From positions 1 to 47,468 of IMG/VR virus record IMGVR_UViG_3300025424_000438: a stretch of DNA of 47,468 bases. One strand, given 5' to 3'. The stretch comes from a virus. Positions 12,955 through 47,468 of this stretch are shown here, piece by piece; position 1 is the stretch's first letter, and each line of letters begins with the position of its first letter. A model generated the notes under the pieces. The model was not told the origin of the DNA. It worked only from the letters and a program-made list of their open reading frames with translations, and made no database searches. Made by a program: the position numbers and the translations under genes.

Positions 12955-12983
12955 ATCATAAACTGTATTCAATTGATTGTCAA
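12955..12983 (-). promoter_or_regulatory. Sigma70-type promoter TTGACA-N17-TATGAT for rIIA/rIIB
   Basis: TTGACA (12978-12983) and TATGAT (12955-12960) are separated by exactly 17 nt, 26 nt before the rIIA start. The boxes lie across the 3' end of the CCA-adding enzyme gene. Confidence 0.85.
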
Positions 12984-14315
12984 CTGCTGAGCATATGTCA
13001 GAAGTTGATCTTTATAGTCTTTACCAATTTTTTCAATAACATACCAGTTTGGCGCGGCTAGGTCAGCTTGAATTAATTTGACCCATTTCTGTTTAATTTG
13101 AGTAAGTGCAGCGCCAAGTCCAGGACCATCTGACCATCCAATAGCTTTCAAATCAGTACCTGTAATAGGACATTTCAAATCCTTATAGTGGTTGATGTGA
13201 TTTGAATTTGGTAGCCATGGACTGTAATTTATCGCTAATGGCCTAATGGATTTGAATTCCTGTCTATAGCGAACAAGGTCACCAATCCATTCAGCTGGAA
13301 TGTTGTCAATCAACACCAATTCCAAAGCGTCTTTTTGTGTTTCTTTGTAATCGATTAGAAACTGAACGTATTTCAATTCCGAATTTGACCATCGCCATTC
13401 TCGAGCCAATTGTTCAAGTTTTGTTTTGCTATCCAGAACTATTGTCAAAAATATAAGAAGGCCATTCACTGAATTATAGTGGTAATTTTGGTTTCCAACC
13501 AAATTAAAATCTTTTAAATCAAATTCTATTCGGGCAACTGCTGAAAGAATATCCAGTTCCTGTAAATGCTTAAGAAGATTTGTCGCAATTGAATTTGACA
13601 TTTTATTGGCAACAAACATCTTTTTGAATTCTGACCAAACTCGTTCAGCCGAAATTTTCCGAAGCCCGTATGCATTTTTCTTTATTGCAGATAGCGTTGG
13701 TTGGTATTTTTCCCAATTGGGACTATTCATTGGATAGTAATATGTGCCACTAGAAAACCTGACAAAGAATCTGAACCAACGAAGGATTCGCAGATAATCT
13801 TCTCGAATTCTCTCATCAGGATCACCCACAAATTCTAGATTGACATCGAATAGATCTTGGACACCGCCGAATGGATCAATCAATTGATCATCAAAGGTCA
13901 GTGACATGGAATTCATTCGGAGATCTCGACGTGCGGCATCCAATGTCCAGTCGCTGGTCCAGGCAACATCAGCATGACGGCCATCAGTTTTTGTATCAAT
14001 TCTCAGACTGGTAATTTCAAATTTATTGGTATCACCATCTTTGTCATCAATCAGAACCGTGACCGTGCCATGTTGCAAGCCAGTTTCAATGTATCTATAG
14101 TGATAGGTCTTGTAAATTTCTATGGCCTGTTCAGGCGTTGCATTAGTTGAAAGATCAATATCAGCAATGTGATGATAAGAATACCCCTGTGCTTCATTGA
14201 GGTAGGCATCACGAACACATCCGCCCACAAATCGAATATCAAATCCATGTGATAGGAAGATGTTTCTCAGAAGAACGATTTCTTCTGGAATATCAAGTTG
14301 TTTCAATAGTGACAT
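12969..14315 (-). CDS. cca: CCA-adding tRNA nucleotidyltransferase
   Basis: A protein of 448 residues. The class II nucleotidyltransferase signature is clear: FVGGCVRDAYL near residue 30, then ADIDLS with the catalytic DxD pair, the RRDLRMNSM motif, and DPFGGVQDL followed by IREDYLRILRWFRF of the RNA-binding region. It adds or repairs the 3' CCA of tRNA. The tRNA gene at 35768 has no encoded CCA, and this enzyme could complete it. The ATG at 14315 was chosen because the family N-terminus begins there; the frame is open further upstream but overlaps the membrane-protein gene. It overlaps that gene by 23 bases. Confidence 0.9.
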   Translation of the reverse strand: MSLLKQLDIPEEIVLLRNIFLSHGFDIRFVGGCVRDAYLNEAQGYSYHHIADIDLSTNATPEQAIEIYKTYHYRYIETGLQHGTVTVLIDDKDGDTNKFEITSLRIDTKTDGRHADVAWTSDWTLDAARRDLRMNSMSLTFDDQLIDPFGGVQDLFDVNLEFVGDPDERIREDYLRILRWFRFFVRFSSGTYYYPMNSPNWEKYQPTLSAIKKNAYGLRKISAERVWSEFKKMFVANKMSNSIATNLLKHLQELDILSAVARIEFDLKDFNLVGNQNYHYNSVNGLLIFLTIVLDSKTKLEQLAREWRWSNSELKYVQFLIDYKETQKDALELVLIDNIPAEWIGDLVRYRQEFKSIRPLAINYSPWLPNSNHINHYKDLKCPITGTDLKAIGWSDGPGLGAALTQIKQKWVKLIQADLAAPNWYVIEKIGKDYKDQLLTYAQQLTIN

Positions 14316-14727
14316 TGGGTTTCTCAAAAAGCGTTGAACCAGTTTTTTTAGATGATGTTGTTTCCCCAATATAACAACCAAATGCTGCTATTAGAAAAAT
14401 CAACATCACCCCAATCGCCGGCAATGCAGTCAACCTAAGCCAAAAATCTTCGAATGTCAACAGAAAAATAGCAATTCCTGCAGAACATCCACTAAGCCAA
14501 AAGAACAACAATATTTTTAAAAAGGTCTTTATTTCAATGAATGGAGTTGTTATGATCTTTTTACGAGAATCAATTGCAGCAATCGCAAACAAAATATCCG
14601 GAATATCAGAACACCCATCAAAAAGTTCAGGATGTGCGTTTTTGATTTTCAAAAGTTCATATTCCAAAAGCTTGTTGTCAAATTCCAATTTAGCTAAATT
14701 GTTTTTTGACACGTTTTTCTTAAACAC
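14293..14727 (-). CDS. Two-helix membrane protein
   Basis: A protein of 144 residues with a charged helical N-terminal half and two hydrophobic helices near 73-93 and 97-118, separated by a short polar turn. A polar tail rich in Thr and Lys follows. The only plausible start is GTG at 14727; the GGGAGG about 13 nt upstream is rather far for a ribosome-binding site. It lies 9 nt after the stop of the Cys-rich gene and overlaps the cca gene. It is probably an inner-membrane protein. No family is recognised. Confidence 0.6.
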   Translation of the reverse strand: MFKKNVSKNNLAKLEFDNKLLEYELLKIKNAHPELFDGCSDIPDILFAIAAIDSRKKIITTPFIEIKTFLKILLFFWLSGCSAGIAIFLLTFEDFWLRLTALPAIGVMLIFLIAAFGCYIGETTSSKKTGSTLFEKPNVTIETT

Positions 14728-16820: not shown

Positions 16821-17708
16821 TTAGGTTTTGTATCGATCTAAAACAGTTTGGATATCTCGGATTACGATGTCGATCTCTGGATTGCGAGCTACAGCAGTGC
16901 TGATGTCTCCATAGTGATGTTCTAGACATTCTAATAGCAACATTTTGATTTTTGATTCATCTGGAAAGGTTGGTAGAGTGCACCTAGTATATAGGTCTTC
17001 CAGCGTGCGTTCTTTTTCCACAAAGTAGGTTTCAAATTGTTCAAAAGTCCATTCACCACGACGAATAGATTTCAACTGTTCGCGATTACGTTGAAGATCT
17101 AGATCATGTTCAGTCATGATCTGTTCAATTTCATTCAATAGACGAACTGCTTGATAGGCATTTTTTAGATCATATCCAAACTTGGCAATTGTTTCTGCTC
17201 GGCGTGGATTAGCTGCATTGGTTTTGTTTCTGATTTTTGAAAGTTCAGAAAATGCATATCCTTTGAATTTGGGCCACATTTGTTTGGATAGAAAAAGATG
17301 ACGACTTTCTCTGACTCGTTCACCAATTTGAGTTGTGTGGATCAAAGAATTGCGTGGACAGAATAGACTATCGATCATATTCGGATTTCCACCCATACAC
17401 AAATTGAAATATTTCACAATATTGTAGATCACAATATCATATGAAATATCTTTATCAGGATCCTGAATATGATGTTGTTGAATCTGTTCAAATAATTCTG
17501 GTTCTTTTCCAAATCCAGGAATATGACCGGATAGATGAGGAAACGTCATTTCTTTGGGAGCAATGCAGAAACCATAAATGTCAAGGTCACTGTCATCTGT
17601 ATTTACAGCATATGCCTGGCTTCCCATTTTTGCCAAATAGCAAGTGTTTGCAAGAACCCATTTGGGAGCATGAAATAGATTCTTTTTGTGTAGTCTGTCC
17701 AAAATCAT
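16821..17708 (-). CDS. RlaP-like nucleotidyltransferase
   Basis: A protein of 295 residues in the polymerase-beta superfamily. The signature MGSQAYAVNTDDSDLD carries the GS motif and the metal-binding DxD (about 41 and 43), as in the RlaP/COG3541 predicted nucleotidyltransferases found in phages and bacteria. The rest is helical with conserved GNPNMIDSLFCP and RAETIAKFGYDLKNAYQAVRLL. The biochemical substrate is not known; an RNA-end or tRNA role has been proposed for the group from its neighbours. ATG at 17708 was chosen because the family core begins directly after it. An ATG 12 codons upstream is possible and would overlap the previous gene. Confidence 0.8.
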   Translation of the reverse strand: MILDRLHKKNLFHAPKWVLANTCYLAKMGSQAYAVNTDDSDLDIYGFCIAPKEMTFPHLSGHIPGFGKEPELFEQIQQHHIQDPDKDISYDIVIYNIVKYFNLCMGGNPNMIDSLFCPRNSLIHTTQIGERVRESRHLFLSKQMWPKFKGYAFSELSKIRNKTNAANPRRAETIAKFGYDLKNAYQAVRLLNEIEQIMTEHDLDLQRNREQLKSIRRGEWTFEQFETYFVEKERTLEDLYTRCTLPTFPDESKIKMLLLECLEHHYGDISTAVARNPEIDIVIRDIQTVLDRYKT

Positions 17709-17721
17709 GACGCCATCTTTC

Positions 17722-18690
17722 TTAGAATTTCTGAAACTCAGCATATATTGTGTAGAGATCAGCGTCAACTAAATCAAATATCTTTTCATAATTCCATTCA
17801 CAATCGCGGAATATTCGGCCATCGCCATCCCAAGACGCACAAGTCGAACTCAATGATTCAAAAATTTGATATTCCGTGCTATTTGATTGATCTAATTTTT
17901 CCAGTGCATAAAGAATTGGTTTATAACCTCGATCAAATTCATTTCTGGTCATCTGCATTTGATGCGCCAAATTCAAGAATCGATCTCGATTCAACATCGC
18001 ATCCAGGATATCTTCTTCATTGGCTTCCCAAGGAAGTTCCAACTTGATTTTAACAGATGCCAAGAATTTTTCACGAGCAATACGCTTGGCTTCGTCTGCT
18101 TTGAATCGTTCAGTTTCCCGAATTGTTTGAATCAAAGTTTGATATTGTTTTTCAATTTGTTCTTTTTTGTTTTTGATTGTAGTCTGCATTTGATTTTTAG
18201 AAACGTCTTGCAGTGGTACAGTGCGCCCAATGTCTGACAAATAACCTGCTCTGTGCGTCACATATTTGGGAGTTCTTGCTCGACTTTTGAAATCACGTTC
18301 TGAATAAGTTTCTGGAATTCCCAGACTACGCATCAAAAATTTAATCTTTTCTACTACTTTGGCATTATGCTCGACAGTCTGTTGATTTTCTTGCCAAATA
18401 GGTTCACAAATTTCCAAGACTTGATCCAGTTGTTGAATCAATTGATCTCGGCGTTTCAGCAATTGTTCGGCGCTAGTAATGTTGGAATCCCAGCTGGAAT
18501 AATCTGGATTGGTTTTCCACCAACGCTCGGGAACCCATTTCAATGCCCAAGCAGTTTTGTTGAGATCGTTTGGTAATGTTTTTAGAGGGCGCCACGATTG
18601 TAGAGTGTCATCAGCCTTCTTTTTCTGAATTTCAAAATTTTCTCGGATGAATTGCCAAGCATCATCAATGTTTGAAACAATAGCCATCAT
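17722..18690 (-). CDS. Hypothetical coiled-coil protein
   Basis: A protein of 322 residues, mostly helical. A heptad-rich region spans about 165-215 (KNQMQTTIKNKKEQIEKQYQ), with another near 75-120. Several Trp-containing conserved-looking patches lie in the N-terminal 70 residues. No enzyme motif or signal peptide is seen. The start ATG forms TGATG with the stop of the small membrane protein upstream and has AGGA close by, so it is translated as part of the same operon. It could be a scaffold or DNA-associated protein. The family is not recognised. Confidence 0.65.
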   Translation of the reverse strand: MMAIVSNIDDAWQFIRENFEIQKKKADDTLQSWRPLKTLPNDLNKTAWALKWVPERWWKTNPDYSSWDSNITSAEQLLKRRDQLIQQLDQVLEICEPIWQENQQTVEHNAKVVEKIKFLMRSLGIPETYSERDFKSRARTPKYVTHRAGYLSDIGRTVPLQDVSKNQMQTTIKNKKEQIEKQYQTLIQTIRETERFKADEAKRIAREKFLASVKIKLELPWEANEEDILDAMLNRDRFLNLAHQMQMTRNEFDRGYKPILYALEKLDQSNSTEYQIFESLSSTCASWDGDGRIFRDCEWNYEKIFDLVDADLYTIYAEFQKF

Positions 18691-18880: not shown

Positions 18881-19330
18881 TTAAGAATTTACAAGTTGTT
18901 TGATAATCTCACTTGCCATTTTGGAATCATACTGCCCAGAATAACAGGCTTTCAATTCTGCCATTATTGGACCCAGTGTTTTTGGTCCTGAAACACCAGT
19001 TTTTGCCATAATTTCACCAATGATTTCAGTAAGTTCAGTTTCAGAAAACTGTTTTGGTACGTAGGCACTAACCAGTTCATATTCTCGCTGAAGTTCAGCA
19101 ATTTTTGAGGTTTCAGATTCAGCTAGAATCTTCAATGTCTGTTCTGCGTTACTTTGATATTTCTTGGCCAGCGCCACTACTTCGGCGTCTGCTATAGTAG
19201 CAGCATGTCCTGCTGATTTGGTAAGATTTGCCAGCTCACTGTAGAAAACGGTTAGTAGATTCTTTGCTGTTGAATCGCCACTTTTCCTAGCGGCGATCCA
19301 ATCTGCTTTGACTTGTTCAAAAAGTGACAT
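18881..19330 (-). CDS. yqeY: YqeY/GatB-like protein
   Basis: A protein of 149 residues that matches the bacterial YqeY family over its whole length. It has an N-terminal helical half (MSLFEQVKADWIAARKSGD...NLLTVFYSEL) and a C-terminal tRNA-binding-like half (SETELTEIIGEIMAKTG...GPKTLGPIMAELK). YqeY resembles the tail domain of GatB, the aminoacyl-tRNA amidotransferase subunit, but its own role is unsettled. In this phage it joins several translation genes. The ATG directly follows the stop of the winged-helix gene, and the ribosome-binding site GAGGAA lies inside that gene. Confidence 0.85.
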   Translation of the reverse strand: MSLFEQVKADWIAARKSGDSTAKNLLTVFYSELANLTKSAGHAATIADAEVVALAKKYQSNAEQTLKILAESETSKIAELQREYELVSAYVPKQFSETELTEIIGEIMAKTGVSGPKTLGPIMAELKACYSGQYDSKMASEIIKQLVNS

Positions 19331-21377: not shown

Positions 21378-21935
21378 TCAATCTGCTTTTTTGGTTTTTG
21401 CAGTAGACACTAATGCCATGATTGAGTTACCAGCAAGTAGTGGCGCCTTATCAATCTTACAGGGCTGAAGTTGTTCAATGAATTCATTGATCACATCAAA
21501 ACCCTTTTGGCTGAAATTCATTTCGCGCCCACGGAACTTGACCACAATCTTTACTCGATTGGAATCTTCTAGGAATTCCAAAGCATGTTTGGCCTTGATT
21601 TGGATATCATGGCTGCTGGTTACTGGACGTAGTTGAATTTCCTTGGTAACAATCTCATTTTCTCGATTTTTTCGAGCTTGTTCTTTTTGCTGAATCTTTT
21701 GATCATAGGAGTACTTATTGTAATCCAAGATCTTAGCAATAGGAGGATCTGCTTGTGCATTCACAACAAAAAGATCCAGTCCTAGATTTCGACTTCGCTG
21801 TAGCGCTCTATATGTTTCAATAACACCAACGTTTGTGCCTGTTTCATCAATTAGTCTGACATGTTTGGTTCTAATATATTCGTTAATTAGAACCGGCGCT
21901 GTTTTTGCTTGAGAGCGTTGTTGAGCGTTATTCAT
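21378..21935 (-). CDS. infC: Translation initiation factor IF-3
   Basis: A protein of 185 residues with both IF-3 domains. The N-terminal part has INEYIRTKHVRLIDETGTNVGVI...ALQRSRNLGLDLFVVNAQADPPIAKILDYNKY. A lysine-rich linker follows, then the C-terminal domain KEIQLRPVTSSHDIQIKAKHALEFL...VKFRGREMNF. IF-3 prevents 30S-50S joining and checks the start codon and initiator tRNA. A phage copy could shift initiation toward phage mRNAs. The start overlaps the clpX stop by eight bases (ATGAATAA), and bS21 follows directly. Confidence 0.94.
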   Translation of the reverse strand: MNNAQQRSQAKTAPVLINEYIRTKHVRLIDETGTNVGVIETYRALQRSRNLGLDLFVVNAQADPPIAKILDYNKYSYDQKIQQKEQARKNRENEIVTKEIQLRPVTSSHDIQIKAKHALEFLEDSNRVKIVVKFRGREMNFSQKGFDVINEFIEQLQPCKIDKAPLLAGNSIMALVSTAKTKKAD

Positions 21936-23211
21936 TCGGCGAGCTATCTACTTTCTTTTCTAAAATTTTAATTGGTGGGATGATTCCCTGAACCACATCC
22001 TGATTTATAATGACTTTGGCCACATTGTCAACTGTTAAATTTGGCAATTCAAACTGAATTGGCAATAAAACTGTTTCTATAATAGAGCGAAGTCCTCGTG
22101 CACCTGATTTCTTTTGAATGGCTAAATCAGCAACTGCTTCACATGCTTCTTTAGTAAATTCCAGCTCAATTCTATCCAACTTAAATAATTTCTGATATTG
22201 TTTTATAATAGAATTCTTGGGTTCTGTTAATATTTTTACCAGCTGGTCTCGACTTAAATTCTCAAAAGGAACAATTACAGGAAGTCGTCCAATCAACTCT
22301 GGTATAATACCAAACTGAATTAAATCTTCACTTTCCAATTGTTTTAGTAGTTCAAAATAATCAAGTTCCAAAGTATCTTCAGACAATGTCGCTCCGAATC
22401 CAATAGTTGATTCCGAATTCAATCTTCGAGAAATAATTTCTTGAATACCAGTAAATGCTCCACCAACAATAAACAAAATGTTCTTTGTATCAATGGTGAT
22501 GTATTCAGCAGCGGGATTCTTTCGACCACCATTGGCTGGTATTTTACATTCAGTACCTTCGATCAATTTGAGTAATGCTTGCTGCACACCTTCTCCACTC
22601 ACATCACGTGTGATACTAGCATTTTCACTCTTCCGGCCTTTTTTATCAATTTCATCAATAAAAATAATTCCATGTTGTGTTTTAACAACGTCTTGTTCTG
22701 CTGCTTGATATAATCTGGTCACACAATCTTCAACATCAAGCCCTACATAACCACTTTCAGTTAAACTGGTAGCGTCTACAATCACAATTGGAATTTCTAA
22801 AAGCTTGGCAATTGTTTTAAGTAAATGCGTCTTTCCCGAACCACTAGGTCCGATGACGCAGCAATTTGACTTGTCAATTTCCACCCCATCAATAACAGGA
22901 TTGTTGATTCTCTTTTGATGATTATATACTGCAACACTTAAAATCATTTTAGCCAAATCTTGACCAATCACAAATTCATCCAAAGCAGCTTTGATTTTGG
23001 CCGGAGTAAGTGTGTTGATATCTAAAATAGTCTGTGTATTTGATTCACGATGTAAAATTTCATAACAAAGGTCTATGCATTCATTGCAAATAAAAACTTC
23101 ATTGGTTCCTTTGATCAACTTTTGAACTTGAATCTGGTTTTTATTACAAAATCCACATTGTCTAAGTTCAGTTGTTGACATGTCAGTTGTGCTTTTTCCT
23201 TTGTTTGTCAC
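21928..23211 (-). CDS. clpX: ClpX unfoldase
   Basis: A protein of 427 residues, full-length ClpX. The N-terminal zinc domain has Cys19, 22, 42 and 45. Walker A is GPSGSGKT (121-128), the pore loop is GYVG, Walker B is IIFIDEID, and the ClpP-docking loop IGFGA is kept. ClpX unfolds tagged proteins, including ssrA-tagged ones, for ClpP. No clpP is in the window, but the intact IGF loop suggests it can dock to host ClpP. The start is GTG in GTGA overlapping the membrane-protein gene; MTNKGK resembles the bacterial MTDKRK N-terminus. An ATG ten codons later is a weaker alternative. Confidence 0.94.
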   Translation of the reverse strand: MTNKGKSTTDMSTTELRQCGFCNKNQIQVQKLIKGTNEVFICNECIDLCYEILHRESNTQTILDINTLTPAKIKAALDEFVIGQDLAKMILSVAVYNHQKRINNPVIDGVEIDKSNCCVIGPSGSGKTHLLKTIAKLLEIPIVIVDATSLTESGYVGLDVEDCVTRLYQAAEQDVVKTQHGIIFIDEIDKKGRKSENASITRDVSGEGVQQALLKLIEGTECKIPANGGRKNPAAEYITIDTKNILFIVGGAFTGIQEIISRRLNSESTIGFGATLSEDTLELDYFELLKQLESEDLIQFGIIPELIGRLPVIVPFENLSRDQLVKILTEPKNSIIKQYQKLFKLDRIELEFTKEACEAVADLAIQKKSGARGLRSIIETVLLPIQFELPNLTVDNVAKVIINQDVVQGIIPPIKILEKKVDSSPNE

Positions 23212-27284: not shown

Positions 27285-29471
27285 ATGAAAATACTAGACC
27301 TAATTGAAGATCGACGTCCTGCTGACATAAATGATTGGTCTGATGAACAATTACTAGATTTCATCATTAGCAAATATTCTGAAGCATATTCAATTAGTGA
27401 CAAATCTAGAAAGTCAGATTATATTCGTGGCTTTTTAGAAAATGCTACCAATATATCTGAAGATGTCATGTTACAAGCAGTACAATTTGAACCACTATTA
27501 TTATATGTTTTTCGAAAATTCAATCCCAGCTTGAGAGTTCAACTAGCTGCGGTACAGGGAAATGGTCGTGTAATTGGTAACTTAAAATATCCTGCTCCAC
27601 TGATTCAATGGGCTGCTTTTAATCAAACCCCACAAGCATTTTATCATATCCAGCCCCCTGAATGTTGTATTCCTGAAATTAGAAAAATACATGAAGAACG
27701 AACAGGTGCACCAACGTTGACTGAATCTTCTAAATTGCCCACCTCAGAAAAATTGCAATATTGGTTAAGCAAATTTAATCCTATTGATTATATCAATCTT
27801 TGGTCGGATAATATTTTAATTGAATATTTCAAAACTCGGTATGCAACAGATATGGGTGAAATTTCATTCAATGATATATTTGAATATCGCAATACTTTAA
27901 GTGATCAAGTCATGTTAGAATTAATCAAATTAAACCCTGGTTTTTATACGGTCCTTGAAAGATTTCATCCTAGTTTAAATGTACAAATAGAATGTTTGAA
28001 ACGATCTGGATTACATATATACTATATGACGAATCCGCCACCACTTCTTCAAACAGTAGCATGTCGTCAAAATCCCCTTGCGATTAATTGGATCAATCCA
28101 ATTAAATCAATCGATATATCACTACTGAAGAAATACAGAGACATATTAGAACCAGACCAACGATCGTACTTGGAGTCTCTGGAAAAATTAACAGAGTCTG
28201 ATGAATCCATTGACCTAGATGATCCAAATACATGGAGTGAAGAGGATCAAATTGATTATTTAAGATCTTTTCCAGGCGCAATAAAAGAATTTATAAATCC
28301 CAGTAAGAAGCTTCAATCGGTGGCAGTTCGATCTGATGAATGGGCATTAAGCAATATTGAAGATCCTGATGAAGATGTTCAATTGGCTGCTGTAACTGCT
28401 TATCCCAACAGTGTCCGATACATCAAAAACCCATCGCAAAAAGTCAAATTGGCTGCTGTTTCAAAAGATGGGATGGCTTTGTTGCGCATAAAACCTGAAG
28501 AAAGAAACATAAATATTCAATTAGCTGCGGTTATGCAAGATCCAGAAATCATATATGAAATAGATAATCCAGTACCTCTGGTTCAAACAGTTGCATTGAA
28601 AAAGACTCCCAAAGCAATCAATTGGATCCGACCCGAAGCAGCAATAGTTCCTGAACTACGAGAAAAATACAAAGATTACTTTTATGGATCATTGACTGAA
28701 TCTGCTTATGATGCAGATGACCCCAATACCTGGACAGAAGAACAACAGATTGATTGGGTACGCCGATACATTGAAAGAATCAAACAGATTAACCACCCAA
28801 GCAAAGCTTTACAAATTGCAGCAGTCAATGAAGACGGTTGGGCCATAAGTCAAATTAAACCCGAAGACCAATGTCTAGAAGCGCAATTAATCGTAGTGCG
28901 AGAAGACGGGCATGCTACTAGAATACGATATATGCGATATCCTCCACCACTCGTTCAATGGACGGCAATAAAAAACAACCCAAAGGCAATTAATTATATT
29001 GTACCACAATCTTGTATAGATCCAAGTTTACTGGAGAAATATGGTAGTTATTTGAATGAATCATTGACTGAATCTGCTTATGATGAAAGCGATCCTAATA
29101 CCTGGTCTGCATATGATACAGATAATCCCAATACCTGGACAGAAGAAAAACAGATTAATTGGGTAAGTCGAGACACTATTATTCGAATTAGGCGCATTAA
29201 CCACCCGAGTAAAGCAGTTCAAATCGCAGCGGTGAAGCAAGATGGTTGGGCAATAAGTCAAATTAAACCCGAAGAACAATGCCTAGAAGCACAATTAATC
29301 GCAGTCAGAGGGAACAATGCTCCTTTAATAAGATATATGAGAAATCCCCCACCACTCGTTCAATGGGCGGCAATAAAAAACAACCCAAAAGCAATTAATA
29401 ATATCGTACCACGATCCTGTATAGATCCTAGCCTATTGAAAGAATATGGTCACCTGATAAATACCCAGTGA
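27285..29471 (+). CDS. Large VQxAAV-repeat protein (helical solenoid)
   Basis: A protein of 728 residues, starting MKILDLIEDRRP, made almost entirely of repeats of 20-40 residues with the cores VQ(L/I)AAV, xAIxxIxxP and PPPLVQxxA(V/I)xxxPxAI. Larger modules of about 115 residues begin DDPNTW(T/S)EExQIDWVR and end DPSLLEKYGxYL. The last two modules are nearly identical, the result of a recent duplication. The repeats look like helical hairpins of the DUF4116 kind, so a protein-binding solenoid is likely. Two smaller relatives lie at 1-284 and 16501. There is no enzyme motif. The function is unknown. Confidence 0.82.
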   Translation: MKILDLIEDRRPADINDWSDEQLLDFIISKYSEAYSISDKSRKSDYIRGFLENATNISEDVMLQAVQFEPLLLYVFRKFNPSLRVQLAAVQGNGRVIGNLKYPAPLIQWAAFNQTPQAFYHIQPPECCIPEIRKIHEERTGAPTLTESSKLPTSEKLQYWLSKFNPIDYINLWSDNILIEYFKTRYATDMGEISFNDIFEYRNTLSDQVMLELIKLNPGFYTVLERFHPSLNVQIECLKRSGLHIYYMTNPPPLLQTVACRQNPLAINWINPIKSIDISLLKKYRDILEPDQRSYLESLEKLTESDESIDLDDPNTWSEEDQIDYLRSFPGAIKEFINPSKKLQSVAVRSDEWALSNIEDPDEDVQLAAVTAYPNSVRYIKNPSQKVKLAAVSKDGMALLRIKPEERNINIQLAAVMQDPEIIYEIDNPVPLVQTVALKKTPKAINWIRPEAAIVPELREKYKDYFYGSLTESAYDADDPNTWTEEQQIDWVRRYIERIKQINHPSKALQIAAVNEDGWAISQIKPEDQCLEAQLIVVREDGHATRIRYMRYPPPLVQWTAIKNNPKAINYIVPQSCIDPSLLEKYGSYLNESLTESAYDESDPNTWSAYDTDNPNTWTEEKQINWVSRDTIIRIRRINHPSKAVQIAAVKQDGWAISQIKPEEQCLEAQLIAVRGNNAPLIRYMRNPPPLVQWAAIKNNPKAINNIVPRSCIDPSLLKEYGHLINTQ

Positions 29472-35738: not shown

Positions 35739-35767
35739 TTCACACAATTAATTTCACAAACGTTCAG

Positions 35768-35923
35768 TAGGCCAGGTGAGATTCGAACTCACGCTAGCTC
35801 CGTTAATTGACGAAAATAAACCAATGAGTCTATTTTCGAATGGGGTTCCCTATTATTTCTAATAGGGGGAAGATCGAACTTCCTAATATGAGCGGAGTGC
35901 CTTAACCACTTGGCTACTGGCCA
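35768..35923 (-). tRNA. tRNA(CAU), interrupted by an 83-nt insert in the anticodon loop
   Basis: Minus strand. Acceptor TGGCCAG/CTGGCCT (six pairs plus a U1-U72 mismatch), T8, A9, D arm GCC/GGC, anticodon stem CTCCG/CGGAG, five-base variable loop, T arm GTGAG-TTCGAAT-CTCAC and A73. Removing 83 nt inside the anticodon loop (about 35805-35887) leaves a regular 73-nt class I tRNA. For most junctions the loop reads CTCATAA, giving anticodon CAU (Met or, with lysidine, Ile for AUA codons). CCA is not encoded, but a CCA-adding enzyme and TilS are. The insert holds three hairpins: 35811-35838, 35848-35867 (GAAA loop in RNA) and 35868-35883. It is too short for a normal group I intron. Confidence 0.85.
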
Positions 35924-35942
35924 ACTCAACGTTTGCATAAGT

Positions 35943-35973
35943 TATTTATAGCAATAATATACCATTTTGTCAA
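35943..35973 (-). promoter_or_regulatory. Dual promoter TTGACA-N17-TATAAATA of the tRNA
   Basis: TTGACA (35968-35973) and TATAAATA (35943-35950) spaced by exactly 17 nt, 19 nt before the tRNA 5' end. It combines a sigma70 -35 box with a late octamer. Confidence 0.82.
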
Positions 35974-35976
35974 CAG

Positions 35977-36723
35977 TTATATGGTGATCCGCCATTCATT
36001 CCAAGGGAATTGATCTGGATAACGTTCTTTCATTACTCGGTTGCCAATTTCAAAAAATTCCCGTGTCACAGATCCTGGATTACCTGCCAAACGATAATTC
36101 AAAGTATATTTGCCTGTACCTCCCCAATTAGGATAGAAGTGATTAATGTTATGTAGGAATTGTCGATCAGCACCCCATTGTCCATGCCAAGCAGCACCAC
36201 ATCTGATTGCTACATCACGTCGAATACAAAATGCAGAAGTATCAACCAAATGACTGTTAGAATCCACATAGGTTGGGTATTTCCCCAGGCTTTCGCAATT
36301 GTCATCCAACAGATAATTTCCTGAAACGTCACATATTTTTCTTAGACTGTGTCCCCAAGCATAACCCTGCATCTTGCATGATTCAATTTGTGAACTCACG
36401 TGATTAGGATCAAACCAATTGTCTTGGTCCAGATAAAATATCCAGTCTTGATCAACTAGAAAATTTGCAGCAGCATAAATCCTATGCCCATACCAACCAT
36501 TAGCGCCAGTGTTATACGGCAAGACCATCACTGAAACGTTATTTTTTTCTGATTTTCCACTAGTAGCATCTGCAATATATATACGAACATCTTCTTCAAA
36601 CTGCGGGCCATCAACGACCACCAACACTCGCGTATTGGACCAATCTTGTTCAACTGCTGATGCTAGACATTCATATAGAGTACTAGCACCAGTTGTTGGA
36701 ATTATAATAACAGCAGAATCCAT
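35977..36723 (-). CDS. GT-A fold glycosyltransferase (GT2-like)
   Basis: A protein of 248 residues. The N-terminus MDSAVIIIPTTGASTLYECLASAVEQ and VLVVVDG, followed by the metal-binding DQDNWF motif (FYLDQD), is typical of family 2 glycosyltransferases. A catalytic-region candidate lies in WGADRQFLHN. It probably transfers a sugar from a nucleotide donor; the acceptor is unknown. ATG at 36723 forms TGATG with the stop of the upstream membrane-protein gene, so the three genes 35977-37558 are one unit. It lies right next to the tRNA promoter. Confidence 0.82.
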   Translation of the reverse strand: MDSAVIIIPTTGASTLYECLASAVEQDWSNTRVLVVVDGPQFEEDVRIYIADATSGKSEKNNVSVMVLPYNTGANGWYGHRIYAAANFLVDQDWIFYLDQDNWFDPNHVSSQIESCKMQGYAWGHSLRKICDVSGNYLLDDNCESLGKYPTYVDSNSHLVDTSAFCIRRDVAIRCGAAWHGQWGADRQFLHNINHFYPNWGGTGKYTLNYRLAGNPGSVTREFFEIGNRVMKERYPDQFPWNEWRITI

Positions 36724-37136
36724 CAAATCATCACTCGCTTTCTGGGACCAAATAATACCAATGACAATAACCAATACAATGTGCCAATTCCAATTTCAAT
36801 TGTCATCAGAAAATAGTTACCAATCAAGTAGGCAGCAATTGGAAAGACAATGAACGTTTGAATAAAGCTTCGTAGGAACACAACGTCCTGATATTCTTCG
36901 TGTAATGCAATTGCTGTTTGAATATCAGGATCTTGACAAGCGACCGCTTGAGAAGAATTAAAAAACAAAACAGTTAAAAACGCCACAAGAGTAAGTACGA
37001 TATCAAAGATTATTGTTCCTGTCACAAGAATGTCGGCCGGTGATTTTAGAACAGTCAATTTTAAACTGGCTATCACAAATGCTAGCAGAATCACATCATA
37101 TGCTCTAGATAACCAAAATTGTCTTTGATAAATCAT
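36723..37136 (-). CDS. Multi-pass membrane protein
   Basis: A protein of 137 residues with four hydrophobic stretches at about 12-30, 38-60, 85-105 and 108-130, and a short charged C-terminus (GPRKRVMI). It overlaps the preceding membrane gene by four bases (ATGA) and the following glycosyltransferase by one. The neighbours suggest a role in sugar transfer at the membrane, for example as a flippase-like or anchoring partner, but no family is recognised. Confidence 0.65.
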   Translation of the reverse strand: MIYQRQFWLSRAYDVILLAFVIASLKLTVLKSPADILVTGTIIFDIVLTLVAFLTVLFFNSSQAVACQDPDIQTAIALHEEYQDVVFLRSFIQTFIVFPIAAYLIGNYFLMTIEIGIGTLYWLLSLVLFGPRKRVMI

Positions 37137-37558
37137 TTTTTGAATCCAGTCTTATAACCAATTTTAAAAACCAACTTCAATGCCAAATAGCCCGCGATCA
37201 TAATCGCCGCCATCTTAGCTTGTAGTTGATTGCCTGAACACCAAACCAAGACCAGCGGGAGCACCCATACAAAAAATGTAGTTGATGGATCCCAATTCCA
37301 TGTGTGAAGAGTTACATAAGTCAATGTGGAATTTTTATATTTTTGGAAATTTTCCAATTGATTATTTCGAATCCAACCGGTGGTTACATTATACAAGATA
37401 ACTACCAAACAAACTGAAAATGCTAACAGCGCAACCCAACACCAACTTAAGACGCTAGCGATATCCTGCAATATAGGAAAGTCTCGACCAAATGAAATTG
37501 AGAGAGCCAATATACAACTAAAAACATAGTGGCCGATTGAAGGAACTCGTTTAACCAT
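37133..37558 (-). CDS. Multi-pass membrane protein
   Basis: A protein of 141 residues with hydrophobic helices at about 9-25, 35-57, 93-110 and 115-131, and a basic C-terminus (KIGYKTGFKK). The start overlaps the tilS stop by eight bases (ATGGTTAA) and the end overlaps the next membrane gene. The two membrane proteins and the GT2 enzyme form a coupled three-gene unit. No family is recognised. Confidence 0.65.
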   Translation of the reverse strand: MVKRVPSIGHYVFSCILALSISFGRDFPILQDIASVLSWCWVALLAFSVCLVVILYNVTTGWIRNNQLENFQKYKNSTLTYVTLHTWNWDPSTTFFVWVLPLVLVWCSGNQLQAKMAAIMIAGYLALKLVFKIGYKTGFKK

Positions 37559-38492
37559 TTTCCCAACTCATCATTAATTTATTGCCAACTTTGTGCAATG
37601 TTAGATTTTCTACTCGAATTTCATTCCTAGCATCTGGCCCGGCAGTCAACAATTCACGGCTGAAGTGTTCAATTTGTCCAGTACTAAAACTTGTAATATT
37701 ATAATGATCAAAGATATGCAAAATCAAATTCTTAATTCTGATCTGTGACCAAGTCTTGATTATTTTCAAATCCAAACTGTTTTGTGTAATTTCTGCAGAT
37801 CGCCAATCCAATTGTGCTAATTCACGCGTCAATTCAAATGTTTCACTCAACAAGTCAATTGATTTGTTGATGTTGATATCAGCAATTGCATATCTTGATT
37901 GAATCAGTGGCCACATGACATTGCGAATCCAATTTCTATCAAATCGATTGGATGCATTACTGGGATCAGTAATATGTTCAATGCCATTGATTAAAGCATA
38001 GGATTCCAGTTGTTCACGTGTTTGATTGAGCAATGGTCTGACAACTTGAATTGCAGGATCCAACCAACATGCGGTAGTGGTTGTCATACCTTTGAGACCT
38101 TTGATGCCAGATCCTCGCATCAATTTCATAAAAAACGTTTCAATACGATCATTTAAATGATGAGCTAGCACAATAGTATCAGCGCCCAGGCTGCACAGAG
38201 CTTGGTAGCGAGCTGAACGAGCAGCAAATTCCAAATTGTTACCTGCCACGTCAACGCGAATCGTTTGTTGTTCAAATCCCAGCTTGGTAGCTTCTCGTTC
38301 AACAAAGTCGCCCCAATTTCGACTGTCAGGATTCAATTGATGATCAACATAAACAACTTGCCAAGTTTTGTCAGCTGTTTTTAATTTAGCCAGGGAGTGC
38401 ATCAGCACCATGCTATCCAGACCACCACTGACACCAATGACAATATTGTGACTATTTGCAAATAGTTGATCAAATGTTTTTTGAGTAATCAT
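37551..38492 (-). CDS. tilS: tRNA(Ile)-lysidine synthase
   Basis: A protein of 313 residues. The PP-loop SGGLDS (22-27) binds ATP. HHLNDRIETFFMKLMRGSGIKGLKGM and DPSNASNRFDRNWIRNVMWPLI are the TilS signatures; the usual HHxDD is HHLND here. The enzyme turns C34 of tRNA(Ile)(CAU) into lysidine, which changes decoding from AUG to AUA. The only tRNA in the window, 1.6 kb away, has anticodon CAU, so enzyme and substrate may travel together. A short C-terminal domain replaces the longer one of bacterial TilS. Its start lies 2 nt after the previous stop. Confidence 0.92.
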   Translation of the reverse strand: MITQKTFDQLFANSHNIVIGVSGGLDSMVLMHSLAKLKTADKTWQVVYVDHQLNPDSRNWGDFVEREATKLGFEQQTIRVDVAGNNLEFAARSARYQALCSLGADTIVLAHHLNDRIETFFMKLMRGSGIKGLKGMTTTTACWLDPAIQVVRPLLNQTREQLESYALINGIEHITDPSNASNRFDRNWIRNVMWPLIQSRYAIADININKSIDLLSETFELTRELAQLDWRSAEITQNSLDLKIIKTWSQIRIKNLILHIFDHYNITSFSTGQIEHFSRELLTAGPDARNEIRVENLTLHKVGNKLMMSWENG

Positions 38493-44959: not shown

Positions 44960-45219
44960 AATGTCAGTTGATTCTGTTATTAGGCTCAACTGACAAATCC
45001 CTCGAAAAGTCGCTTACGCGGCCATTTCCATGAATGCATTATCGTTAGCATTTCTTACGTTTGGACTAATTGCAGGTCGTTCCTTACCTAAAGCCTAAAT
45101 ATCATCTCTATTACCTGTCGATAACTAGTCACCCACATATGAAAGTGGGAGAAGTTGGTGTAGGTGGAGGAATTCGCATCCTCGTCCAGTCTAACATTGA
45201 ATCTACGTCAAGCAGCTTC
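44960..45219 (-). ncRNA. ssrA: Circularly permuted tmRNA
   Basis: Minus strand. The acceptor piece comes first: GGAC, T arm GAGGA-TGCGAAT-TCCTC, acceptor strand CACCTAC and ACCA ending at 45156. After a 19-nt spacer the coding piece starts at 45136 with GTGGGTG, which pairs with CACCTAC over 7 bp (one G-U). It is followed by ATCGACAGG, the conserved tmRNA TCGAC(R)GG element. The tag frame, ending ANDNAFMEMAA-stop (45049-45014), follows TTAGTCC; the exact resume codon is uncertain. A 9-bp hairpin (44963-44971 with 44986-44994) and a terminator close the gene. The 3'-half-before-5'-half order defines the permuted, two-piece form. Confidence 0.9.
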
Positions 45220-45224
45220 AAAGA

Positions 45225-45255
45225 TATTTATGCATTCTTTTTAGAGAATTGTCAA
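45225..45255 (-). promoter_or_regulatory. Dual promoter TTGACA-N17-CATAAATA of the tmRNA
   Basis: TTGACA (45250-45255) and CATAAATA (45225-45232), exactly 17 nt apart, directly upstream of the tmRNA acceptor piece. Confidence 0.82.
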
Positions 45256-45257
45256 AT

Positions 45258-45329
45258 GAAAAGCCACCGACATCTCAACCAAATCTTTTGGAAATGGGTA
45301 CTGGATTCACAGCTGAGTCGGTGACTTCT
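45258..45329 (-). ncRNA. Three-way-junction small RNA of unknown function
   Basis: On the minus strand an 11-bp closing stem (AAGTCACCGAC with GTCGGTGGCTT, 45317-45327 and 45261-45271) encloses two hairpins: CTG/CAG with a 6-nt loop, and CCAAA-AGA-TTTGG. A TTTTCATTT tract follows. It has its own dual promoter and lies just before the tmRNA promoter. No frame in it looks coding. I know no RNA family with this shape. Confidence 0.65.
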
Positions 45330-46334: not shown

Positions 46335-46443
46335 GCTTGTTACTTCTTACGAGCATAATGCTGTTGTATCTTTAGATCAACAGATAACGGCGGGTTAAAT
46401 AAAAACAAATTGCAAATTGTTTGATAATTAAATATAAATGAAT

Positions 46444-47468
46444 ATGAAAGTAACCTATTTAGTAAAACATAATCGTGATTACACAGACGAGCTAACAAAA
46501 GCTCGTCTGGTTGCTGAATGGGCTATTCAAAATAAATTTCAAACCAGTTCCAAACACGTAAAACATATTGGACTTAAATCGGCTATTGCTTGCCAAATAT
46601 TGCGTAAATATGGCAGAAATAAAAACTGTAAGTCAATCACTTCTGTTAAATTGACTATACCTGGTGCTAATGGAAATATACAAATAACCAAAAACGGCGA
46701 AATTAAAATCACTTGTCTAAATGAGCTATTCGTACCCTGGTTTGATTTAACAAACATTACTAAAATATGTCAAATAGAAGCTGATAACGAAAAATATTAT
46801 ATTACTTGTGAGATTGATGAAGAAATACCAAATAATCCAGAATCATATATTGGTGTTGATTTGAATTCAACAGAACATTTTGCTGTGATATCAAGTGGCA
46901 ATAAGATAATCAAACGCGGTAAGCGTCTACGTCATACCAAAGAAGCTGCTATTGCACATCGAGCTAGATTGCAGAGAAAGAAACATTATAAACAGATCAA
47001 AAGAAACAAAAACAAGGAACGTCGTCGTGTACGTGATCAATTACATAAAATAACACGCGAACTAGTTGATCTTGCCAAATCAACAGGACAAGGCATTAGA
47101 ATAGAAAATTTGACGGGAATACGTAAGAAAACAACAAAGAAATATCGAACAAAAAGCAATCGTACCACAAATAACTGGAATTATAGTTTGTTTAGGCAAA
47201 TGCTGGAATACAAAGCCAAGATATGTGGTGTAGTTGTTGAAGCTATTAATCCATTCAACACAAGTAAAACTTGTTCTAGATGTGGCGCAATAGGTCTTCG
47301 AGAACACAAAAAATTTGAATGTCTGGATTGTGGACATCGAGATCATGCCGATTCAAATGCAGCTTTCAATATTGCATTGGGATCACTGATCACTCCTACT
47401 AGTAAAGCGCCTAGTAGTGATGGCTGCTGTGAATCAGCCACGTCAGCTCTGTCTGTGAAAGCCGGACA
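46444..47468 (+). CDS. tnpB: TnpB (IS200/IS605 OrfB-type RNA-guided nuclease), runs off the window
   Basis: An open frame of at least 341 codons with no stop before the right edge. The RuvC-like triad is visible: Asp in YIGVDLN, Glu in IRIENL and Asp in HADSNAAFNIA. A zinc ribbon (TCSRCG...FECLDCG) lies between the last two. The basic bridge-helix region (RARLQRKKHYKQIKRNKNKERRR) is present. TnpB is the RNA-guided DNA nuclease of IS605-type elements and the ancestor of Cas12. No TnpA transposase is in view. The start follows a TATAAATG box by 3 nt, without a ribosome-binding site. Confidence 0.9.
   Translation, partial: MKVTYLVKHNRDYTDELTKARLVAEWAIQNKFQTSSKHVKHIGLKSAIACQILRKYGRNKNCKSITSVKLTIPGANGNIQITKNGEIKITCLNELFVPWFDLTNITKICQIEADNEKYYITCEIDEEIPNNPESYIGVDLNSTEHFAVISSGNKIIKRGKRLRHTKEAAIAHRARLQRKKHYKQIKRNKNKERRRVRDQLHKITRELVDLAKSTGQGIRIENLTGIRKKTTKKYRTKSNRTTNNWNYSLFRQMLEYKAKICGVVVEAINPFNTSKTCSRCGAIGLREHKKFECLDCGHRDHADSNAAFNIALGSLITPTSKAPSSDGCCESATSALSVKAG
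47396..47440 (+). ncRNA. Stem-loops in the tnpB 3' end, candidate guide RNA scaffold
   Basis: Two hairpins, CTACTAG-N8-CTAGTAG (47396-47417) and TGGCTG-N8-CAGCCA (47421-47440), lie in the last visible part of tnpB. In IS605 elements the omega RNA overlaps the 3' end of tnpB. The end of the element is outside the window. Confidence 0.4.

Follow-up and report, generated by a model that had tools for sequence, protein, structure and literature searches.

An 83-nt folded insert interrupts the anticodon loop of a probable phage tRNA-Ile2(CAU) gene encoded near tRNA(Ile)-lysidine synthase

Results and Discussion

Structure of the interrupted tRNA locus

The CAU tRNA gene that lies near a gene for tRNA(Ile)-lysidine synthase (TilS) in the investigated phage DNA (IMG/VR virus record IMGVR_UViG_3300025424_000438; the whole stretch of 47,468 nucleotides is termed the window) is interrupted just 3' of its anticodon by 83 nt that fold into three hairpins, an insert that we tentatively infer to act as an intron. 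TilS converts C34 of tRNA(Ile)(CAU) to lysidine, so that the tRNA reads AUA, and the first-pass annotation had interpreted the two genes as an AUA-decoding kit. Such a plain kit is of a known kind; unusual here is the interruption of the Ile2 tRNA. The features concerned are the following:

35945-35973, minus strand: TTGACA-N17-TATAAA, resembling a promoter and placed immediately 5' of the tRNA gene (read by eye)
35924-35935, minus strand: leader arm CAAACGTTGAGT of a helix prolonging the acceptor stem (inverted repeat I1, MFE fold)
35888-35923, minus strand: 5' exon of the probable tRNA-Ile2, TGGCCAG TA GCCAAGTGGTTAAGGC A CTCCG CTCAT, tRNA positions 1-36 (Rfam tRNA alignment)
35805-35887, minus strand: insert of 83 nt, splitting the anticodon loop immediately after CAU
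35768-35804, minus strand: 3' exon of the probable tRNA-Ile2, AA CGGAG CTAGC GTGAG TTCGAAT CTCAC CTGGCCT A, without CCA (Rfam alignment)
35757-35767, minus strand: trailer arm CTGAACGTTTG, the pairing partner of the leader arm, covering the three would-be CCA bases (inverted repeat I1, MFE fold)
37551-38492, minus strand: TilS of 313 aa (PF01171, 158 bits; TIGR02432; SGGLDS motif)
12969-14381, minus strand: CCA-adding tRNA nucleotidyltransferase (PF01743 and PF12627 above cut-off)
16821-17768, minus strand: RlaP-type RNA-repair nucleotidyltransferase (PF10127, 50 bits, cut-off 23)

The tRNA gene was recognised by Rfam over the whole window (RF00005, 47 bits, E 4.9e-7; 35768-35923, minus strand), the alignment placing 85 bases in the anticodon loop where the tRNA model has 2; because the 83-nt insert resides in this loop, the gene comprises 156 bp and not ~75 bp. 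ARAGORN with default settings reported zero tRNAs in the whole window. After removal of positions 35805-35887, the joined exons (TGGCCAG TA GCCAAGTGGTTAAGGC A CTCCG CTCATAA CGGAG CTAGC GTGAG TTCGAAT CTCAC CTGGCCT A) form a canonical 73-nt cloverleaf with a predicted folding energy of −28.1 kcal/mol, in which the stems and the invariant D-loop and T-loop bases are intact according to the Rfam alignment and ARAGORN reads CAU. An uninterrupted CTCATAA loop with CAU is thus absent from the gene as encoded and appears once the insert is gone; shifting the insert border by one base either way leaves this product unchanged. With introns allowed, ARAGORN set the border to read CTT and called tRNA-Lys(CTT); this call was rejected, as the other splice choices all give CTCATAA and every relative has CAU. 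The first-pass annotation was right about the tRNA and, after closure of the loop, its anticodon, but had overlooked the insert and the gene length of 156 bp. Its remarks on the acceptor end were accurate: the A73 discriminator is followed by CTG, hence CCA is not encoded, and U1 and U72 do not pair. By pairing with each other, leader and trailer lengthen the acceptor stem to 19 positions, two of them mismatched (inverted repeat I1, MFE fold). The promoter-like sequence was not listed by the promoter scan, whose rule demands T as the last base of the −10 element; the relative L004 contains TTGACG-N17-TATAAA at the same place.

The reported full TilS gene and the CCA-adding enzyme at 12969 were both recovered. 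Judged from its sequence, TilS is genuine: it possesses the N-terminal PP-loop domain and the SGGxDS motif, scores 162.6 bits with TIGR02432 (cut-off 93.6) and matches the solved TilS structures PDB 1ni5, 3a2k and 1wy5. The CCA-adding enzyme reached 159 bits with NF009814, which is under the cut-off of 290 for that model. An RNA ligase was not found in the window or in the overlapping contig G001; the 139.6-kb relative encodes one and has no insert.

Further genes of the window comprise a permuted tmRNA of alphaproteobacterial type (44962-45266, minus strand; RF04321 88 bits, RF01849 53 bits), which is also present in the related phages L004, L146, L147, L150, L166 and L226, as well as translation initiation factor IF-3 (21378-21935, minus strand), a YqeY-like protein (18881-19330, minus strand), a ClpX-like ATPase (21928-23211, minus strand) and a TnpB/OrfB_IS605-like gene that runs off the window end (46438-47466, plus strand). 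The long ORF 27282-29471 matches DUF4116/DUF2674 and contains a 345-bp stretch twice (28701-29045 and 29106-29450, 81% identical).

Isotype of the joined tRNA

Four bacterial genomes with members of the exon family were examined: three (G024, G026, G027) each encode an initiator, an elongator Met and a third type of CAU tRNA, while in the fourth (G025) only an elongator type and the exon-family type were found. The exons resemble the third type, to which their identity is highest and which, standing beside initiator and elongator Met in three of the four genomes, is Ile2 by elimination. They carry C4:G69, C5:G68, A73 and C29:G41; C4:G69 and C5:G68 are TilS determinants in E. coli, and most CAU tRNAs adjoining viral TilS genes also have C4 and C5. 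The three G:C pairs of the initiator at 29-31:39-41 are absent (stem CTCCG:CGGAG, with C:G at 29:41). Many relatives have A:U or G:U at 1:72, so the U1/U72 mismatch looks like a local change rather than an initiator feature. The sequence comparison thus supports a probable Ile2 and not a Met identity: the methionine or initiator-like alternative raised earlier shares the CAU anticodon and the unpaired 1:72 of initiators, but is highly improbable in view of the C29:G41, C4:G69 and C5:G68 pairs, the closest identity to the third type, and the distinctness of the family from initiator and elongator Met in the genomes holding all three.

TilS and CAU tRNAs as a viral module

The combination of TilS with a CAU tRNA is supported as a common viral module and known phage equipment. 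An ordinary CAU tRNA was found in the examined flank of 30 of the 80 viral TilS loci, at a distance of no more than 300 nt in 22; other anticodons were rarely so close to TilS. The two nearest relatives (L003, L004; TilS 93% identical) also have a CAU tRNA in this place, but a different one that is uninterrupted and has its CCA encoded, and the CAU tRNA at this spot is the sole tRNA found by ARAGORN in the 139.6-kb relative. Near the TilS genes of more distant clade members (39-48% identity) no tRNA was detected, and none of the small number of tRNAs recognised on their contigs was a CAU tRNA; as this clade keeps TilS without a nearby tRNA, the enzyme may also act on the host tRNA. Virus-encoded TilS accompanies tRNA sets in other phages (e.g. 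Pseudomonas phage Callisto/PA5oct), where it has been proposed to aid AUA reading, as here. Chloroviruses likewise encode TilS, proposed to help read AUA, and use AUA 12-13 times as often as their host (PMC7589089). The interrupted tRNA distinguishes the window from both kinds of kit. As separate observations, many viral contigs (L173-L204) carry TilS with a CAU tRNA ~90 nt downstream, some of them with tmRNA too, and in a relative with a related glycosyltransferase a CAU tRNA lies ~2 kb downstream of that gene (L348:2575-2646).

In the main ORFs of the window, AUA occurs 13.0 times per 1000 codons and makes up 16.5% of the Ile codons, compared with ~38% expected from third-position composition. 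In contrast to the chloroviruses, in which AUA is high relative to the host, the usage in the window lies below compositional expectation. Of the earlier AUA-decoding kit, the real TilS, the probable Ile2 tRNA and their recurrent proximity in viruses therefore stand, but AUA is not enriched. Across 25 orthologous ORF pairs, the AUA fraction was 0.200 in this phage and 0.198 in a relative whose CAU tRNA is uninterrupted, and AUA changes (16 versus 12, p 0.57) did not differ between the two; in consequence, AUA has not been reduced by the interruption of the tRNA.

Properties and distribution of the insert

The insert consists of the hairpins GGAAG/CTTCC, CCCTATTA-GAAA-TAATAGGG and CGAAAATAGACT-CATT-GGTTTATTTTCG and folds alone at −27.5 kcal/mol (shuffled mean −13.5, z −5.2). 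Since the whole 156 nt fold at −55.9 kcal/mol, against −28.1 for the joined tRNA and −27.5 for the insert taken apart, insert and tRNA body are predicted to be independent modules. The overlapping contig G001 contains the identical insert and shows no mismatch to the window across 21,252 bp, the contig ends being different; an assembly error is thus unlikely, even though the two contigs may derive from related samples.

In Rfam searches up to E 10, the insert region matched no family credibly except tRNA, and no group I match was obtained. The 83 nt end in T or A and not in G, and by inspection no complement of CTCAT occurs inside, hence no evident guide pairing with the 5' exon; in the predicted fold the borders lie in 9 and 8 unpaired bases, and inspection revealed no 4-bp central helix of a bulge-helix-bulge. 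The insert matches neither the group I nor the bulge-helix-bulge type. Two other origins were discarded: for a decayed or permuted second tRNA the first hairpin is T-arm-like, but a D-arm is absent, and for a miniature IS200/605 element (compare the TnpB gene at 46438) both end hairpins are unlike each other.

A family pattern of D-arm plus CTCATA retrieved 63 loci (12 bacterial, 51 viral), including 61 complete family members without insert (L283, cut by a contig end, was excluded); the tRNA of the window was the sole carrier. The nearest insertless relative, the phage tRNA L279, is identical to the joined exons at 60 of 73 positions. The insertless Ile2-type family with the D-arm GCC-AAGTGGTTAAGGC (L279, L330, L328) has the same exon sequence, loop and fold as the tRNA of the window, but lacks the insert, and in most of its phage members, unlike in the latter, CCA is encoded and positions 1 and 72 are paired. 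Exact exon patterns had no match beyond G001; when IMG/VR was scanned by pattern for CAU tRNAs carrying ~64-94 nt of insert, the at least 120 matches listed were, this locus apart, ordinary tRNAs; blastn of the locus gave nothing against plasmids and just short tRNA or chance matches against phages. No second copy of the insert was present in the window or in 3 Mb of loci examined, nor in 385 genomes belonging to a single bacterial class, a search that was run without a positive control. Since the insert was seen in one population only, there is no variation that could show selection. Introns of such kind in phage tRNAs were not found in the literature searched.

Splicing and its alternatives

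Because 83 additional bases separate position 36 from position 38, the tRNA as written is not expected to decode before their removal. We tentatively prefer, at somewhat less than even likelihood, a phage AUA-decoding module of TilS and tRNA-Ile2(CAU) that has acquired a self-folding insert resembling an intron, with removal by cleavage and ligation. Cuts would occur at both open single strands bordering the insert, and the tRNA halves would be rejoined, most likely by RNA-repair/ligase enzymes of phage or host, a route proposed because neither a ribozyme nor a bulge-helix-bulge is recognisable; the CCA enzyme would then complete the 3' end and TilS would then turn C34 into lysidine. Slightly in favour of splicing are the intact exons, the exact loop, the CAU tRNA retained at this place in relatives and an AUA use that has not dropped; that the insert folds without disturbing the predicted tRNA body is a further point for it. 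RlaP in the window and the RNA ligase of the relative are circumstantial support for a protein-dependent process; against it speaks that this relative lacks the insert and that no ligase was found in the window or in G001. Neither the Rfam search nor the predicted fold of the insert region revealed a splicing signal of any known kind.

Bacterial tRNA introns have been described as self-splicing ribozymes located in the anticodon loop (PMC4390854). The Azoarcus pre-tRNA-Ile, as cited there, is likewise a bacterial isoleucine tRNA with an intron; its intron is a self-splicing group I ribozyme, in contrast to the 83-nt insert with no group I match, terminal G or evident guide pairing. The tRNA introns of archaea and eukaryotes, which a splicing endonuclease removes (PMC4090602), are short and located at or next to the canonical site one base 3' of the anticodon, as is the insert, which however has no bulge-helix-bulge and resides in a phage with bacterial-type TilS, a permuted tmRNA and no RtcB (none in G000, G001, G003). 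It is conceivable, if rather doubtful, that the insert represents a class of compact, folded tRNA introns undescribed in bacteria and phages, distinct from group I, group II and bulge-helix-bulge introns and removed by a mechanism as yet unrecognised.

The main evidence against splicing is that CCA and the 1:72 pair, both kept in most of the family, have been lost, which could reflect decay; the pairing of the would-be CCA bases with the leader was also counted against it. Both losses would fit a tRNA recently inactivated by a small palindromic element, with TilS serving the host tRNA-Ile2. Such a pseudogene, which we consider possible but on the unlikely side, is consistent with an insert made mostly of hairpins with TA at both ends and with the distant clade members, which keep TilS although no CAU tRNA was detected near it or among the tRNAs of their contigs. 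The intact stems and invariant bases, the lack of a second insert copy in the searched loci and genomes and the unlowered AUA usage argue against it, but each of them is likewise compatible with an insertion that happened very recently.

Less probable still is an unspliced small RNA whose tRNA body would act as a scaffold protecting a folded cargo, e.g. a decoy for anticodon nucleases or TilS. The independent folding of the insert, the extended terminal helix formed by leader and trailer and the promoter-like sequence just upstream would suit such an RNA, and phage tRNAs have been proposed to evade anticodon nucleases by loop changes (PMC10264068); however, the bases bordering the insert still give exactly CTCATAA, relatives carry a plain CAU tRNA at the same spot, and no target is known.

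Implications

Interrupted tRNAs escape ARAGORN at default settings, so further cases may exist. With TilS and tRNA(CAU) travelling together in phages, AUA decoding becomes a testable phage function. If an 83-nt insert without recognisable ribozyme or splicing motif does reside in an otherwise complete tRNA, this would imply either that splicing takes a new route in the phage-infected bacterium or that the molecule is a tRNA-scaffold RNA of natural origin.
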